From assembly GCA_947493495.1 (NCBI GenBank), contig CANLRN010000014.1, forward strand, positions 1-64,000: DNA of 64,000 nucleotides, given 5' to 3'. Positions 4,096 to 45,996 of the stretch are shown in pieces. How positions within the stretch are numbered: position 1 is the first letter of the stretch; each line of letters starts with the position of its first letter. Below the pieces are notes generated by a model. It saw only the letters and a program-made list of their open reading frames with translations, had not been told where the DNA came from and made no database searches. Position numbers and translations under genes: made by a program. The DNA comes from an uncultured Aquimarina sp. Its GTDB lineage: Bacteria > Bacteroidota > Bacteroidia > Flavobacteriales > Flavobacteriaceae.

Positions 4096-4971
4096 CTACT
4101 TATTAGCAAACATTCTAATACCCCATGCTTTCTTATAATGTTTGTATAATAAGTCATAGATAACCATTTCGTGCAAACGGTTTCTGGACCTAAATAATCG
4201 ATTCATTAGCATGTGAATATAACTACTCATCATATCGTGTAATTCTTCTTCCTTTCTGACCATTACAATTTTCTTAATCGTATCTCTACAATCTTTACTT
4301 TTTTGATCTATGGTTTCAAATATTGGTGCGTATTCAGATGATACCTCAGTCCCTAGGAAACTTCTTATTTTGTCTTGTTCTTCTCTATATTTTTTATCTA
4401 ATTGCTTTTTTAACCCTTTATTCATACCAAATTCTATCCCAAAAGCTGTTTTTATCCTTTCTAGCAAGTTTAATTTTGCATCTTCATTATATCCAAAATC
4501 GCTTAACAATTGATCAATTGCTTTTACCGAAAATAACCATCGTAATTCCTCTCCTTGATCTCCATCAATCATATCTAGGAAATTCATGATCATGTTACTT
4601 TCATAATAGAACAACGTTTCCGACAATTCCATAGTTGATTCTCCATAGCGCTCTATCTCTCTCTGATAGGTGTCTAATTGTATTTTCCAGATCAGATCTT
4701 CATTGACAAAATCAAGTAATAATGGATATAGGGTATTGATAATCTGAGCTACATTTTCTGGTGCTGTATAATGAAAACGAACTCTAATATGATGTTTTGG
4801 ATCTGAGTATCTGATAAAAAACCACTTATCGATAACTCCTTGTGAGAGCAAGTTTTCTGTGATAGGTTTCATGATTTCTGTAAGTACCAGATCAGCAGTT
4901 TTTGGACCAGTGTATATTTTATAATACAGCCATTCTCCTCCCACTATATATGAACGTTGTATGTTACTCAT
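4096..4971 (-). CDS. Thiopeptide-type/SpaB C-terminal domain protein (LanB elimination domain, stand-alone)
   Basis: 291 aa; RSYIVGGEWLYYKIYTGPKTADLVLTEIMKPI...WFFIRYSDPKHHIRVRFH and C-terminal RNRLHEMVIYDLLYKHYKKAW. Confidence 0.85.
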   Translation of the reverse strand: MSNIQRSYIVGGEWLYYKIYTGPKTADLVLTEIMKPITENLLSQGVIDKWFFIRYSDPKHHIRVRFHYTAPENVAQIINTLYPLLLDFVNEDLIWKIQLDTYQREIERYGESTMELSETLFYYESNMIMNFLDMIDGDQGEELRWLFSVKAIDQLLSDFGYNEDAKLNLLERIKTAFGIEFGMNKGLKKQLDKKYREEQDKIRSFLGTEVSSEYAPIFETIDQKSKDCRDTIKKIVMVRKEEELHDMMSSYIHMLMNRLFRSRNRLHEMVIYDLLYKHYKKAWGIRMFANK

Positions 4972-4974
4972 TCG

Positions 4975-7215
4975 TTAATTTTGGATATTTTTTAATTTTT
5001 TATCATTATAAAATGATATAATAACTTGATTCGTATAGGATTCGTTACCTTTTTCTACCAGACTTTTTTCTGTATGTAAAAATTCTTGTAGCTTAAAACG
5101 AGATCTATTTTTTACTGTATGTAATACCATTTTTACAGAAGTTATATTTTTCATATTGATTAACAACTCATTATCTCCATCTACTAATACTATATATTGT
5201 GGTAATTTTTTAATGTTACTAAAATCATTCAATGCAGTAATAAATGCATCTTTATTATTGATTTTATCTACTAAGGGTTGTATCTCTTCTATGGTAACAT
5301 GCCAGATAGCAGGCGATAAAATAACTCCACGATAGTCTACCCTAGGCAAAAAACTATATTCTTCTTGCAATGGACCCCAATCAAATGAAATACCCCCTCT
5401 TTTATTATGAGATTGCATATTGGCTAAAAACTGGTAAATAGGCAATGCATTGCCCGAAAAATTATGTGCATTGGTCAATCGTGGAATTACTTCCTTATTG
5501 TGCTTTTTTGATCGTAGTTTTATATACCCATTAGATGTAGTAGATATCATAAGATCATCAAGAGGTATTTGATGTTGATGGTCTACTATTGATTTTGCTA
5601 GATATGGAATTTCATATTTTCTGAAATTAGGACGCATTAAGATATTCCCAACTCTCGATTCTGGTAAATGTACTATTTCTGCAAGAATCTTATTAGGATT
5701 CATCATTGCTTCCTGGTCTATAATTTCTTGTGTATACTCATGTAATGCAGCATCTCCGTGACAAAAACGCCCTAATAAATTCGCTGCACTAGATCCTCCT
5801 GCGCTACTAAAAATAATTTTTTCTTCTCCGTTAATAGTTACGAATTCTACCATAGAAGATATGGTATCAGGCAAGTCATCCCAATTCTCCTTCAAACTTT
5901 CAAAATCCTGATCTTGTAATGAGATACTATACTTTTGTTCATTGATACTTTCTAGCAATTTTTTTTGTAATATGGTATGTATGGGAGACAATTTTATATC
6001 TCTATATGCTTGATTATTTTCTTTAAAAGGCAAAACAAGATCATCTACAATTGCGCTTACATCTCCAGATCCTTGATTCTGAAGAAACCCTACTCCTATT
6101 TCCACATCCAATGCTTTAGATAAAGGGACTTCTCTATTCTCATAACGCTCATAAAATGCAGCTTGGAATCTAGTCATTAGCGTTTCTTGTGGTGAAAGCG
6201 AAATCTTATTGAGCAACCGTATTGCCTTTCTAATTGTGTGCAAGGATTGGGTATTGATACAATTCTTAGTAGGGGTAACAATCATATCTGTCTGGAACAT
6301 ATACTTAAGTTCAAAACCTGTCCCTAATTTTTTTAAAGCATCACTTAATTTTATATATATCGATGCATCATTTCCTAATTTTTTATCAATCGCCAATAAT
6401 TCTTTTTGGGCTTTTTCTAGTGCTAAAACAATCTCTTGCGCAGCCTCTATTTTTTTTAGAACAGGCAACATCTGATCTAAAAATTCTGCTCCAGAAACCG
6501 AAGGCTCTAATTCGCTAATTAGTAATTGACTTTCTATTAATTGATCGATAAATCCTTTTGCTTCTTCTATGGTAATTTCTTCATCTACCAAGAGTTCTGC
6601 AAGATCTTGTAATAGTGCTCCTTGGTTTGCTTTTTCTAATACTACTTGTATGTAATCAGAATGTTCTACTGCTACTATATGATGTACTCTTCTACTATTG
6701 ACATAAGTATATTCTACATAGCGCAATTGTTTTCCTGCATTATAAATACTCGTATTGGGATAGAATTTTAATTGGTTTTTAATCTTTTCTTGTGCTACAA
6801 TATCCTGAGATAAAGCCACTAAATAATTCATGTCTAATCGAGTATGCCTCTTATTCTTGGTCTTATCCTGTAATACAATAGTCGTTTGCTCAGCAAAACT
6901 TCCTATACTTGTCCCTGCAAAAAGACCAAAAGGCGTACACCTTGAAGACATTCTACTAATATATTTAAGGACAGAATGTTCTATTCTTTCTGATACCGAG
7001 GAATCAGTAATCTCTCCTCTATACCATTTTTCGAACTCCTGATACAATGAAGGAGAAGCTAGAAAGATTGCTTCTTTAAGGATAGGATCTTTACACACTT
7101 GTCTCAATACGGCTGTGTCTAGCTCCTTACTTTCGGTCAGTTTTTTATAAAATGAAAATGAAAATAACGGAACTCTTAATACATATTTAGAGAAGTTCTT
7201 ATAAGTCATGAGCAA
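4975..7215 (-). CDS. Lantibiotic dehydratase (LanB N-terminal/glutamylation domain)
   Basis: 746 aa; ISRMSSRCTPFGLFAGTSIG is the hallmark LanB motif; architecture and operon context with LanC. Confidence 0.9.
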   Translation of the reverse strand: MLMTYKNFSKYVLRVPLFSFSFYKKLTESKELDTAVLRQVCKDPILKEAIFLASPSLYQEFEKWYRGEITDSSVSERIEHSVLKYISRMSSRCTPFGLFAGTSIGSFAEQTTIVLQDKTKNKRHTRLDMNYLVALSQDIVAQEKIKNQLKFYPNTSIYNAGKQLRYVEYTYVNSRRVHHIVAVEHSDYIQVVLEKANQGALLQDLAELLVDEEITIEEAKGFIDQLIESQLLISELEPSVSGAEFLDQMLPVLKKIEAAQEIVLALEKAQKELLAIDKKLGNDASIYIKLSDALKKLGTGFELKYMFQTDMIVTPTKNCINTQSLHTIRKAIRLLNKISLSPQETLMTRFQAAFYERYENREVPLSKALDVEIGVGFLQNQGSGDVSAIVDDLVLPFKENNQAYRDIKLSPIHTILQKKLLESINEQKYSISLQDQDFESLKENWDDLPDTISSMVEFVTINGEEKIIFSSAGGSSAANLLGRFCHGDAALHEYTQEIIDQEAMMNPNKILAEIVHLPESRVGNILMRPNFRKYEIPYLAKSIVDHQHQIPLDDLMISTTSNGYIKLRSKKHNKEVIPRLTNAHNFSGNALPIYQFLANMQSHNKRGGISFDWGPLQEEYSFLPRVDYRGVILSPAIWHVTIEEIQPLVDKINNKDAFITALNDFSNIKKLPQYIVLVDGDNELLINMKNITSVKMVLHTVKNRSRFKLQEFLHTEKSLVEKGNESYTNQVIISFYNDKKLKNIQN

Positions 7216-7231: not shown

Positions 7232-8452
7232 TTAGCTAATTAATAAACATTCATCCCACTTGGTGTCGAAGGGCGCAAGGTATGAAATGATTGCTAATCC
7301 AATTCCTGTAATACCTTCTAATAGATTGGTTTCATTTCTCCAGCCTTCGTTTTCTCCTCCGCTCCACTGCATATAACCCGCCTGCCCATTTTGATGGATC
7401 GCCATAGTAAGCCCTTCTCGCATCCAAAAATCTGAAGTCTCTTTAAATAGTTCTTCTTTTGTTTCTTTATACATATACTGATATACATGCATGACTCCAA
7501 AAGCACCGTGACATAATCCTGAGTCTTTGATTTTGCACTCTGTAAGGTCTCTTCTATTGGCAGAATGTTTTAAAATTTCTATACCCTTTTGTTCAATGCG
7601 ATCATCATTTAATACCTTTCCTGCTCTCCATAATGTAATCCCTATGCCTAGATCTCCATAACACCATCCTAACCTGGCCGATGAATCCACCTTCATACCA
7701 TCATATACCCAGCTTGGAAAAAGCGAAGAAGAAGAGATACTAGCGTCCTCAAAACCTAAAACATAATGTATCGCGTCCTTCATCAATTTTTCTACTTCTG
7801 GATAAAATTCTTTATATGCTGCCAAACGAGATAAAAAATTAATTATACTCATCATCCCATGTGACAAACTGAGATTATAGCCTTTTAGTTTTTCTTCTTT
7901 GATTAAATACACTTCCCACTTGGCAGTATCTCCTTTTTTTATAGCGGTAGCATCTAGTGTAGATATAATTTCTAAAAGTATTTTTTTATACGATTTTTTT
8001 AATATATCGGATGCTGTATTCTGATATCTCTTCAGGAAATAAAACCCAATACCCATTACACCGTGAAGAAAATCATAATAATTATCCTCTTTTCCAAATT
8101 GTTCTACAGACTGAACCAAGAATTCATCTAAACCAGACAATAGCTCATCACTATCTATATCCACCATTTCTTCTTCTCTTAATAGTTCTATTGTCCACGC
8201 AGCACCTGCTATACCTGTACAGAAGGTTGGGTACGTATATCCTTCATTTATCTGCTCGATAATAGAAGATAGTATCTCTGCTCCCATATCTGCATTAGCT
8301 TCTGTTTGCATAAACTTAGCATAATAGAAATGAAAGAGTGCCCTCCCAGAAGCTCCAGCTAGGACCCCAATATGTTCTCCTCTGGGTTTTGTTTTAGAAA
8401 GTATCTCCTCTATTTGGTGAAGTTTTTCTAATAAGATAGATGTATTATTCAT
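7232..8452 (-). CDS. LanC-like lanthionine cyclase
   Basis: 406 aa; SLSHGMMSIINFL, WCYGDLGIGITLW and GLCHGAFGVMHVYQYMY supply the C...C-H zinc-ligand pattern. Confidence 0.9.
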   Translation of the reverse strand: MNNTSILLEKLHQIEEILSKTKPRGEHIGVLAGASGRALFHFYYAKFMQTEANADMGAEILSSIIEQINEGYTYPTFCTGIAGAAWTIELLREEEMVDIDSDELLSGLDEFLVQSVEQFGKEDNYYDFLHGVMGIGFYFLKRYQNTASDILKKSYKKILLEIISTLDATAIKKGDTAKWEVYLIKEEKLKGYNLSLSHGMMSIINFLSRLAAYKEFYPEVEKLMKDAIHYVLGFEDASISSSSLFPSWVYDGMKVDSSARLGWCYGDLGIGITLWRAGKVLNDDRIEQKGIEILKHSANRRDLTECKIKDSGLCHGAFGVMHVYQYMYKETKEELFKETSDFWMREGLTMAIHQNGQAGYMQWSGGENEGWRNETNLLEGITGIGLAIISYLAPFDTKWDECLLIS

Positions 8453-8597: not shown

Positions 8598-8771
8598 TTA
8601 GAAACATTGCATTCCTGGAGGAGGACAAGAATTTAATGCTCCTTGTGTCATACAGAAATTTGTTGGAGCAGGACACATCGCCGTTGGATGCCACCCTCCT
8701 TTAATGTCTTTAAGATTTAAATTACTTATAGTTTCTTTTTTAAGTTGTAAATTTTTTAATGACTTTTTCAT
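8598..8771 (-). CDS. Lanthipeptide precursor peptide 1 (57 aa, GG leader)
   Basis: Translated by hand: MKKSLKNLQLKKETISNLNLKDIKGGWHPTAMCPAPTNFCMTQGALNSCPPPGMQCF*; leader nearly identical to the peptide at 10245-10418; directly upstream of lanC. Confidence 0.88.
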   Translation of the reverse strand: MKKSLKNLQLKKETISNLNLKDIKGGWHPTAMCPAPTNFCMTQGALNSCPPPGMQCF

Positions 8772-8792
8772 GTGTATTATATTTAAAAATGA

Positions 8793-8824
8793 CCTACTCT
8801 ATTAAAGGTTTTCGGTTTCCCCTT
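8793..8824 (-). promoter_or_regulatory. Conserved precursor-upstream element, copy 1
   Basis: Plus strand cctactctattaaaggttttcggtttcccctt; matches the two other copies, 22 nt before the ATG at 8771. Confidence 0.7.
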
Positions 8825-9328
8825 TTATAGGAATTATTATAAAAGCAGCTCCTATGTATTCTAAAAGTACTATTGAAAAGAAAAATTAAAAACTATGTGT
8901 CCTTAGATTTTTTAAACCTGAATCAGGCATTAGAAAATTTAATTTTTCAAATTTTATTCTTCTGATATGAGGTAAAGGTTTTCTATTAAAAGAAACCTAT
9001 TTGAGTTCCTCTCAAAGGTATCTAAATAATCAAAAAATAACGACAGAAGTTTCTTTAGATTTATAAATTTAAACAAATATTTCGTATCTTTATTTACTTA
9101 GAAAACTACCGTCTTTGCTGGTATTTCCTACATTTGGATATTGGAGTCAAATATCCAATTTGCCTGCTCGAAGCTGTTATAGTTTTTTGGTTTTTGGGAA
9201 TTTTTTTGTTAATACCTAAGCAATTTATCGTTTAATTGTCAATTATTAGGCGTTTAAAAGAAGCCTCAATAGTCTAAAATCTTATTTAAATTTTTGATTC
9301 TTTTCACAATCAGCAGAATTACAGACTT

Positions 9329-9643: not shown

Positions 9644-9823
9644 TTATAACACAAAATAATCTTTGCCGTCTTTACCTTTTAAAATAAAATAAGTCCTACC
9701 ATCTTTATTGATTTCAATAGGATATTCATCAGATAGTGTTGTTCCTCCAATTATTCCCTTCAAACTCTTTTTTTCAAGAAGCTTAACTTCTTTCCATTTT
9801 GATACTAAAAAAAAATCTAACAT
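9644..9823 (-). CDS. Small double-glycine peptide without cysteine (59 aa)
   Basis: MLDFFLVSKWKEVKLLEKKSLKGIIGGTTLSDEYPIEINKDGRTYFILKGKDGKDYFVL*; ComC/bacteriocin-like leader ending GG; starts 18 nt after the preceding peptide pseudogene stop. Confidence 0.65.
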   Translation of the reverse strand: MLDFFLVSKWKEVKLLEKKSLKGIIGGTTLSDEYPIEINKDGRTYFILKGKDGKDYFVL

Positions 9824-9841: not shown

Positions 9842-10025
9842 TTAATGTAATATTTGATAACAGGTTCCTTCTCGAGTACACCCCCCAGAAAAATTCTGAA
9901 CACAATGTTGATATAAAGAACCGTGTCCAGGCAAACTAATGTCATTACAATCTCTGGCTTTAAAAGATTTCTGTTCTTTACTATCTAATTTTTACTCCCT
10001 CTAAATTTAAAATATTATTAAGCAT
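9842..10025 (-). pseudogene. Frameshifted Cys-rich precursor peptide
   Basis: MLNNILNLEGVK then +1 in an A5 run, continuing LDSKEQKSFKARDCNDISLPGHGSLYQHCVQNFSGGCTREGTCYQILH*; span of 184 nt is 3n+1. Confidence 0.7.
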
Positions 10026-10031
10026 AATTAT

Positions 10032-10165
10032 CAATGTCGTTAAGTTAAGCTTTGTCATTGTCAGTCTGAGCTTGTCGAAGACCATCCTAACTTTCGTTTT
10101 TGATTCCACTTCGACAGGCTCAGTGTGACAAAATAGATGTTTTTTAGCTTAACTTAACGACATTG
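10032..10165. mobile_element. MITE-like element, copy 1 (134 bp)
   Basis: 20-bp perfect TIRs CAATGTCGTTAAGTTAAGCT / AGCTTAACTTAACGACATTG; 10-bp flanking direct repeat GCATAATTAT (10022-10031 and 10166-10175); inner palindrome CTGAGCTTGTCGAAG / CTTCGACAGGCTCAG. Confidence 0.9.
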
Positions 10166-10189
10166 GCATAATTATATATATTTTAATTA

Positions 10190-10222
10190 CCTACTCTATC
10201 TTAAGGTTTTCGGTTTCCCCTT
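10190..10222 (-). promoter_or_regulatory. Conserved precursor-upstream element, copy 2 (separated from its peptide by the MITE)
   Basis: Plus strand cctactctatcttaaggttttcggtttcccctt; ~21 nt from the ATG copy preserved in the right TSD (10167-10169). Confidence 0.7.
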
Positions 10223-10244
10223 ATAAAGAAGTTTTAAAACAATT

Positions 10245-10418
10245 TTAATGTAGCACACAAATTGGTCTTGTACCTGGCCCCGTTCTAGCTGTGTTTCCAC
10301 AGAGATATGAATTCCCACAAAATAATGAAAAAAGCTCATTTCCTCCTTTAATTTTATTAAGACTTAGATTACTAATTGTTTGCTTTTTTAACTCTAAATT
10401 TTTTAATGATTTTTTCAT
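10245..10418 (-). CDS. Lanthipeptide precursor peptide 2 (57 aa, GG leader)
   Basis: MKKSLKNLELKKQTISNLSLNKIKGGNELFSLFCGNSYLCGNTARTGPGTRPICVLH*; the ORF-track start at 10493 is over-long and would run through the conserved upstream element. Confidence 0.88.
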   Translation of the reverse strand: MKKSLKNLELKKQTISNLSLNKIKGGNELFSLFCGNSYLCGNTARTGPGTRPICVLH

Positions 10419-10439
10419 GATCCATTGTATTAAAAAACA

Positions 10440-10472
10440 CCTACTCTGCTTTAAGGTTTTCGGTTTCCCCTT
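10440..10472 (-). promoter_or_regulatory. Conserved precursor-upstream element, copy 3
   Basis: Plus strand cctactctgctttaaggttttcggtttcccctt, 22 nt before the ATG at 10418. Confidence 0.7.
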
Positions 10473-10547
10473 ATCAAAATCAGTTGTCGACATTGCTTTG
10501 ATTCTGACACTAAACTATATTTAAAAAGAGTGAATTAAAAACAAAAC

Positions 10548-10603
10548 AACCCTGTTTTATCTAAAACAGGGTTATAAAAAAACCTGCAAAATATGCAGGT
10601 TTT
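10548..10603 (-). terminator. Tandem hairpin terminators downstream of the 10626-10787 peptide
   Basis: aaccctgttttatctaaaacagggtt and aacctgcaaaatatgcaggttttttt. Confidence 0.6.
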
Positions 10604-10625
10604 TTTTATATGCAGATTTACTCAG

Positions 10626-10787
10626 CTATAAACAATAATATTCTGTCATATCTAGAAGATGAAAAATAGATGTTTCATCCTCAGTTACTACGCAATCACC
10701 TCCAATAATTTTACTCATTGCATCTGGATTAATCCTAGCAATAGTTAGCTTTTTTAGACCGATTTTGTTTTGTTGTTGTTTTTTCAT
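10626..10787 (-). CDS. Divergent lanthipeptide-like precursor peptide (53 aa, GG leader)
   Basis: MKKQQQNKIGLKKLTIARINPDAMSKIIGGDCVVTEDETSIFHLLDMTEYYCL*; LKKLTIA.IN leader resembles class I precursors of Bacteroidota. Confidence 0.75.
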   Translation of the reverse strand: MKKQQQNKIGLKKLTIARINPDAMSKIIGGDCVVTEDETSIFHLLDMTEYYCL

Positions 10788-10940
10788 AAACAAGGTGTTT
10801 TAGTGATTTTTCTTACTCTTTTTTTGGATTTTCAGAATCTCCCATGTTTCAATATTCTTACTAAAATATATTTTATCCGAGAGACTTATCACAATTCGTC
10901 CACCCTATATTAGACAAAAACGGGTTGTTTTTTATACCTC

Positions 10941-12665
10941 TTAATTAAAATTATTTTTGTTATAATTCTTTTTTATATTCTTGATATAATATGATGGGTT
11001 TAAACCTGTCTTTGCCTTAAAATGTTTTGCGAAAGCATCATCACTTTTATACCCTACTTCTGCCGCAATAGACTTCACAGAAAAATTTCTAAATTTTTTA
11101 TCATTCTTTAATCGCTGCAATGCATATCTAATTCTTAAATCAGTAATGTATTCATTAAATTTCTTTTGTTTATGCGTATGAATAATCTTAGTTAGATAGG
11201 TCGTATTTGTTTTTACTTTTTTAGCAATGGATGTCAAATTACATTCGGGTTTTAAAAAATATTCTTGTTGTTCTAACCTAGCCAAACCATTTAGTACTTC
11301 GGTTACCTTATCATCATCAATTACAATTTGCTTACTAACATTATTCTTATTGAGATTCTCTTGAGATTCTAAACGATCTATTTTTTCTATCAAAGCATTA
11401 AACATTTTTTTATAAGTACTTTGCTTCTTTACATATAAAAATATAATGCTAAATAATCCACATAAAATCAATACTAAAAACCATAAAACATACTTCTTTT
11501 TTTCTTCTGCATTAATTTTTTCTTGATTAAGATTTTCTATTTGTTCTCCTAATTTTTGAATATCATGATTGTTAATTTTATGTATCGTTTTGTCCTTTTC
11601 ATTAAGGAATTGGTCTCTTAGCAATGTATATTTCTGCATCCAACCAGCGGATTCTTTTTAATCGCCAAGGGCAAAGTAGCAATCTGCCAGTAATCGATAG
11701 GTATACAAAACTCTTATCTTTTTTAAATCTTTTTTTTGTAATGAAGTAATAGTTTTCTTAAGATATACAATAGCTTTATCGTATGACTCTTGTTTGTACA
11801 AGCAACTCGCTAAAAAATAATTAAGATTCATCAAATATTTTTTAGCTTTTAGAGGATTATTAAATAATATATTCTCTGCTATATGTAAATTATCAAATGC
11901 TTGGTCTAAATCGTCCTGAAAAAAAAATACAGAACCTCTTTTGGTATATAAATCAATAAGACCAATTTTATAATTGATCGGTTTACTCAGGTCTATCCCA
12001 ATTCCTGCATAATGTAAAACTGAATCATATTTCTTTTGATCCAAATACGTTTCACTAACAATAGTAAGTAGATTCACATGATTTTTGCCATTTTCGAAAG
12101 ATGTGTTCTTAGTTAATTCTAGGGCATGGGTACTAACTTTCAAAGCTTTCTCCAGCTGTCCCATCCTTCTATAAATTATTGCAATTCCAGAATTTGCAAT
12201 AATTTCACGTTTTACATTTCTGTTTTCTTTCAGTATGTTTAACGCTAAATGATATGTATCAAGGGCTTTTTGATTTCTCCATTCTTTTAAATGAATATTT
12301 GCCATTTTTAAATAAACACGACATAATAATTCTCTATCGTTCAACTTTCTGGCAAGTGTATCAGTCTTGCTTAAGTATAGTAAACTCTTTTCGTAATTTA
12401 CTTTAGTATAAAAAAAGTTAGCAACATCAAAATATAAGGATATTGAATTAGATTGTTCATTTTTCGGAAGGTTTAAAAATATATTTTCATAGACCGCTAT
12501 TTCTTTAGCATCAGAGGACTTAATTAAAATTACTAATTCTATAGGTGTTTTATTTTTTAGACTATCCACCGCTTCAATAGTTATTCCTTGAGCAGTACTA
12601 ACCAATGATATGAACATTAGTATAAGTGCCTGAAAGAAAAGAATTTGTTTTCTGAAAAAAATCAT
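10941..12665 (-). pseudogene. TPR-repeat/TM/AraC-type HTH regulator interrupted by one in-frame TAA
   Basis: ORFs 11658-12692 (TPR part; likely start MIFFRKQ at 12665) and 10941-11639 (TM plus AraC HTH, VKSIAAEVGYKSDDAFAKHFKAKTGLNPSYY) are in the same frame: ...CYFALGD*KESAGWMQKYTLLRDQFLNEKDKTI. Confidence 0.75.
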
Positions 12666-12754
12666 TGTTACAGCTAAGAAGTATACTCCCAAATGTAATA
12701 ATTCTTTTTAATCTGTTTTTAGATCTATAAGAACTTATACTATCTTATATGGAA

Positions 12755-45672: not shown

Positions 45673-45996
45673 TTAAACCTAGATTATGCGTTAGAACTTC
45701 GTTATGAGTCAATCATATACAATAAATACTAGTGTTTTCTTAATTTTAGCATAGCACCGTATTCTGTGATTATTAAAAAATACAGTTTACATTAGTATTT
45801 GCAATAGATCATAGACACAATAGATTTTTTAATGCATAATCTGGGCAATGTCGTTAAGTTAAACTTTATCATTGTCAGTCTGAGCCTGTCGAAGACCATC
45901 CTAACCTTCGTTTTTGATTCCACTTCGACAGGCTCAGTGTGAAAAAACAGATGTTTTTTTGAGCTTAACTTAACGACATTGATAATCTGGGTTAAA
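45673..45996. repeat. Palindromic repeat family B copy 2, interrupted by MITE copy 2
   Basis: Outer arms TTAAACCTAGATTATGCGTTA / AATGCATAATCTGGG[MITE]TTAAA; shares AATACTAGTGTTTTCTTAATTTT.GCATAGCACCG with 25841-26017 in inverse orientation. Confidence 0.7.
45846..45981. mobile_element. MITE-like element, copy 2 (136 bp)
   Basis: CAATGTCGTTAAGTTAA.../...TTAACTTAACGACATTG TIRs; 10-bp TSD ATAATCTGGG at 45836-45845 and 45982-45991; ~90% identical by eye to copy 1. Confidence 0.9.

Follow-up and report, generated by a model that had tools for sequence, protein, structure and literature searches.

Class I lanthipeptide clusters of Bacteroidota combine a lantibiotic dehydratase in N- and C-terminal parts (LanB), a LanC cyclase and several precursors with GG-type leaders. 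The cluster described here, which lies in a 64,000-nucleotide stretch of an uncultured Aquimarina sp. (the window), shares this make-up but differs in that one precursor and the regulator are broken, and in that each main precursor has its own copy of a DUF805b RNA element. Between one such element and its precursor lies a MITE. In its size, perfect inverted ends (TIRs), constant 10-bp duplicated target (TSD), high copy number and lack of coding capacity it resembles other bacterial MITEs; it differs from them in that no autonomous partner or transposase was found beside the TIRs in this genome, and no IS family has been assigned.

The element itself can be compared with small pseudoknot riboswitches that act on translation, such as SAM-V and preQ1, in which a compact pseudoknot of the H type likewise lies immediately before a start codon. 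DUF805b differs in having no known ligand, in carrying a 5-nt loop, GAAAA, between its helices, and in occurring in up to 27 copies per genome. Bacteroidota, moreover, mostly lack Shine-Dalgarno sites that could be hidden, an absence noted in PMC9723704. We suggest that DUF805b may work like these riboswitches, and do not claim that it belongs with them.

The precursor array and its DUF805b elements

On the minus strand the genes are arranged in the order regulator, precursor (ATG at 10787), precursor (10418), broken precursor (10025), small GG-peptide ORF (9823), precursor (8771), LanC and LanB in two pieces. The cluster contains both a dehydratase and a cyclase, namely the N-terminal (4975-7215, PF04738) and C-terminal (4096-4971, PF14028) parts of LanB and a LanC-like protein (7232-8452, PF05147), all on the minus strand. 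Among the relatives of the LanB protein in named genomes, 13 of 14 are from Aquimarina. Two intact GG-leader precursors lie at 8598-8771 and 10245-10418 (both minus), downstream of DUF805b copies 1 and 3, respectively. A further GG-leader precursor, at 10626-10787 (minus) downstream of copy 4, matches the class I lanthipeptide leader model NF038153; one precursor scored above the cut-off of this model and two others below it. The small ORF at 9644-9823 (minus), with a GG-type leader (MLDFFLVSKWKEVKLLEKKSLKGIIGG...), belongs to the same array and has no DUF805b element. At the edge of the window, a group-II-D1D4-2 Rfam match above its cut-off (65-177, minus) represents part of a group II intron.

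The earlier note on this DNA had described a conserved element upstream of the precursors. The element is indeed present, but it is not new: it is the Rfam family RF02914, DUF805b RNA (clan CL00115, type Cis-reg). Our search of the open-access literature found no work on it. With the covariance model and its gathering cut-off of 35.6 bits, three minus-strand copies matched end to end and above the gathering score: copy 1 at 8791-8825 (45.3 bits), copy 2 at 10188-10223 (43.8 bits) and copy 3 at 10438-10473 (38.9 bits). These correspond to the three units counted previously, to which a fourth, sub-threshold copy at 10810-10845 (minus, 30.9 bits) has to be added. Other Rfam matches between 8400 and 10900, to leader peptides and sRNAs, were below cut-off and mostly fell on terminator-like hairpins near 10540-10650.

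DUF805b is present in 61 of 69 Aquimarina genomes, with up to 22 copies, in 109 of 201 sampled genomes of the family, where the maximum of 27 is reached, and in 77 of 299 genomes of the phylum. One copy elsewhere in the present genome (G000:C15:49293-49328) scores above the cut-off with no recognisable ORF behind it and is an orphan element.

A MITE over the start codon of one precursor

The insertion between copy 2 and the precursor starting at 10025 occupies 10032-10165 (134 bp; no strand is assigned to it or to its flanking repeats). Its TIRs, CAATGTCGTTAAGTTAAGCT, match at 20/20 bases, and its body is palindromic. On both sides it is bordered by the direct repeat GCATAATTAT, a perfect 10-bp TSD, with one copy beside the ORF (10022-10031) and the other beside the element (10166-10175). 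A BLAST search of the 5.02-Mb genome returned 57 matches to this family, many of them partial or single-arm, and full copies measure about 134 bp. Where both ends were found (20 copies, including the one at 10032-10165), the 10-bp TSD was perfect in 9 and had one mismatch in 6 more. The TIR consensus occurs 67 times in the genome and the reversed control pattern not once, so that the combined signal of TIRs, TSD and copy number is far beyond chance. The element is thus a MITE, as had been proposed: short, multicopy, bounded by TIRs and a TSD of constant length, and devoid of a transposase. When a further 18 genome regions were searched for an autonomous partner, 17 had a TIR site, and no recognisable transposase lay beside these solitary TIRs.

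A second copy of the same MITE is found in the window at 45846-45986, with the perfect 10-bp TSD ATAATCTGGG. Many copies (L018, L019, L023, L024, L029, L032 and L033) have almost the same target, TAATGCATAAATYGGG...TTRAA, as though the MITE had gone into another repeat family or had a strong target consensus. By itself, the MITE insertion is an ordinary event. CAT, which is ATG on the other strand, lies within the TSD, and the start codon is therefore present twice on the minus strand, at 10025-10023 in the copy beside the ORF and at 10169-10167 in the copy beside the element, which bears out the duplication that had been read from the repeats. With the T of GGT taken as the final base of the element, copies 1 and 3 both end 20 nt before the ATG. 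For copy 2, the distance is 163 nt with the MITE and 19 nt to the element-side ATG without it, close to the roughly 21 nt expected in the earlier note once the MITE and one TSD are taken away. The insertion added 144 nt and has displaced the precursor start from its element.

The empty site is retained in relatives. When the region was searched for across the genus, several genomes gave matches to the element part and the ORF part whose overlap is exactly ten bases long, as is characteristic of an unoccupied MITE target. In an alignment with six Aquimarina relatives, each has a single target copy (ATAATTATGC or a close variant) and no MITE, compared to the two copies flanking the MITE in the window. 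The earlier note had held that sister strains with the wide gap and no MITE would speak against an insertion; these six sequences, which are orthologues or close paralogues at the genus level rather than sister strains, have the short gap.

The duplicated ATG, 19 nt from the element, reads ATG CCA ATG TCG TTA AGT TAA, a six-codon ORF (MPMSLS plus stop; 10149-10169, minus) that enters the MITE. As RNA, the MITE hairpin is predicted to be very stable (-58.3 kcal/mol, z -10.7), and when it was folded with its flanks the two TSD copies paired with each other and lengthened the MITE stem, which would put the true ATG at the foot of the hairpin. These features suggest the following history. A non-autonomous MITE, whose inverted ends are 20 bp long, went into this Aquimarina class I cluster across the start codon of one lanthipeptide precursor and duplicated 10 bp. 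It left 144 nt between the gene and DUF805b, a putative small H-type pseudoknot whose end normally lies some 20 nt ahead of the start codon. If DUF805b controls translation initiation in cis and depends on short spacing, the insertion would have uncoupled the element from the gene; any initiation close to the element would then go to the six-codon ORF, and the real ATG would sit at the hairpin foot, if such an RNA is made. A transcript that began within the MITE would lack the DUF805b element. We infer this effect on gene expression from the arrangement of the sequence.

Decay of the displaced precursor

A peptide ORF does start at 10025, as had been noted, but it is just 14 codons long, ending at the stop TAG at 9981-9983. 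When a 1-nt deletion in the A-run at 9989-9993 is allowed for, the remainder aligns over its full length with intact precursors of relatives, several of which end in GTCYQILH. The AG processing motif in front of the core in those precursors is AR here, and fewer Cys are left. Judged by this alignment, the stretch at 9842-10025 (minus) is a decayed lanthipeptide precursor, a pseudogene for reasons unrelated to the MITE. Since the gene is also broken by the frameshift, the insertion would be one step in the decay of the unit or a passenger of it. We think it probable that the MITE, lying over the precursor start, uncoupled the gene from a start-proximal cis-acting DUF805b pseudoknot that is strict in its spacing, in one or the other of these two roles.

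It could also be that relaxed selection had already let the precursor decay and that the MITE came later as a neutral passenger, uninformative about the element, although we lean slightly against this. The frameshift, the lost AG motif and the fewer Cys agree with it, as does the adjoining regulator, a TPR plus AraC-type HTH protein (10941-12692, minus) that is continuous in relatives and split here by an in-frame TAA at 11658-11660. In addition, another DUF805b precursor of the same genome (L005, G000:C114:3699-3733) has a frameshift in an A-run right after its ATG with its element at the normal 20 nt, so that decay in this genome needs no displacement. The perfect TIRs and TSD are as expected for a recent insertion and favour one, perhaps into an already failing gene. 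However, a single genome does not reveal which event came first, and the element is still perfect, which would make the decay recent too. Because the gene is broken for other reasons, and L005 decayed at normal spacing, the locus alone cannot tell what the DUF805b element does; it is a weak natural test of DUF805b function and not the clean internal experiment that the earlier note had seen in it.

Being in an A-run, the 1-nt deletion could be a sequencing error, in which case the ORF would be intact in the living strain and the displaced gene would be functional, or silenced by the MITE only. The genome is a draft of 333 contigs and the two frameshifts described here both lie in A-runs, but the run at 9989-9993 is just five A long, the remaining long genes in the window are unbroken, and the change of AG to AR and the stop in the regulator are substitutions rather than changes of run length. 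We regard this explanation as unlikely.

Pseudoknot pairing and start-codon distance of DUF805b

The proposed uncoupling of the precursor by the MITE presupposes an RNA element with a fixed place before the start codon, and both properties were examined beyond this locus. The printed Rfam model of RF02914 pairs P1 only; covariation adds a second helix, P2, formed between the trinucleotide that precedes GAAAA and the final trinucleotide of GAGTAGGN. In copy 2, P1 joins 10222-10219 with 10206-10203 and P2 joins 10214-10212 with 10191-10189. The covariation set consisted of 88 distinct hits anchored on the ends of the covariance-model hits, independently of the proposed P2; this anchoring was used because MAFFT, given the mixed elements, aligns the P1 3' strand in the wrong place. 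Pairs 1 to 3 of P1 are standard in 86, 87 and 85 of the 88 hits, and the inner two P2 pairs are near-invariant and standard in all 88. The outer P2 pair varies (G-C 34, A-T 22, T-A 14, C-G 4, G-T 4, T-G 1) and is Watson-Crick in 74/88; over 5000 shuffles, which do not correct for relatedness, the count averages 28.5 and never exceeds 45. A larger, pattern-found Aquimarina set agrees (124/138 standard, shuffle maximum 107). The pair types recur across different P1 backgrounds and different families, and copy 4 of the window keeps P2 as TCT/AGA, the compensatory version of ACC/GGT. On the strength of this covariation, DUF805b is best read as an H-type pseudoknot.

The distance to the gene is regular as well. 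It was measured in the best-scoring loci, chosen by model score only. Of 104 such loci from Aquimarina, 101 have the end of the element 15-33 nt ahead of an ORF's first ATG, with a median of 23; for other Bacteroidota the figures are 59 of 61 and a median of 21. Together this gives 160/165 with a cis-regulatory position upstream of a gene. Because this distance is constant, we infer that DUF805b may control translation initiation. A sigma-A box directly before the element showed no enrichment next to P1, and the promoter was not located; one-mismatch -7 boxes gave a modest, weak peak 37-41 nt upstream of P1, which would place the element in the transcript. That the element acts instead as DNA, as a promoter or protein-binding site, with the MITE lengthening the leader without effect, would suit its position upstream of the gene and its strong sequence conservation but is quite improbable, as P1 and the outer P2 pair are kept while their letters vary through all four Watson-Crick types, the distance to the ATG is kept, and the -7 peak, weak as it is, would leave the element transcribed.

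In Aquimarina, the genes behind the element are mostly those of GG-leader peptides or exported proteins. By a crude classifier, the 104 ORFs that follow it there include 61 short ones carrying a GG-type leader and 32 that look Sec- or lipoprotein-like; the GG pattern alone is found in 17% of control ORFs. Outside Aquimarina the mix, by the same crude classifier, moves to Sec- or lipoprotein-like genes, which make up about half, with a GG leader in 12/61, and an exclusive link between DUF805b and RiPP precursors was accordingly rejected.

Returning to the proposed uncoupling of a gene from its element by the MITE, a more specific and rather doubtful proposal can be made. The DUF805b pseudoknot might gate the translation start, through a ligand or a protein, for exported peptides and RiPP precursors in Bacteroidota, and might do so only within about 15-33 nt; the MITE allele would then be a natural spacing mutant in which one precursor is turned off via initiation at the duplicated start codon. 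The element is a known one, and what deserves further attention is its pseudoknot, its spacing rule and the genes with which it is associated. The orphan RNA can now be described more sharply, by a covariation-supported pseudoknot, by a strict phylum-wide spacing before the start codon and, in Aquimarina, by downstream genes whose products are mostly of the GG-leader (RiPP-type) kind or exported; its function thereby becomes directly testable with a reporter. As a sequence tag, DUF805b can also help to locate precursor peptides, which annotation easily overlooks.

Two of the spacing outliers, L146 and L152, have 97 and 84 nt, respectively, between element and ATG and precede lipoprotein-like genes; they are possible further natural spacing variants, and the gap of L152 contains a hairpin, AGGTGAT...ATCACCT.
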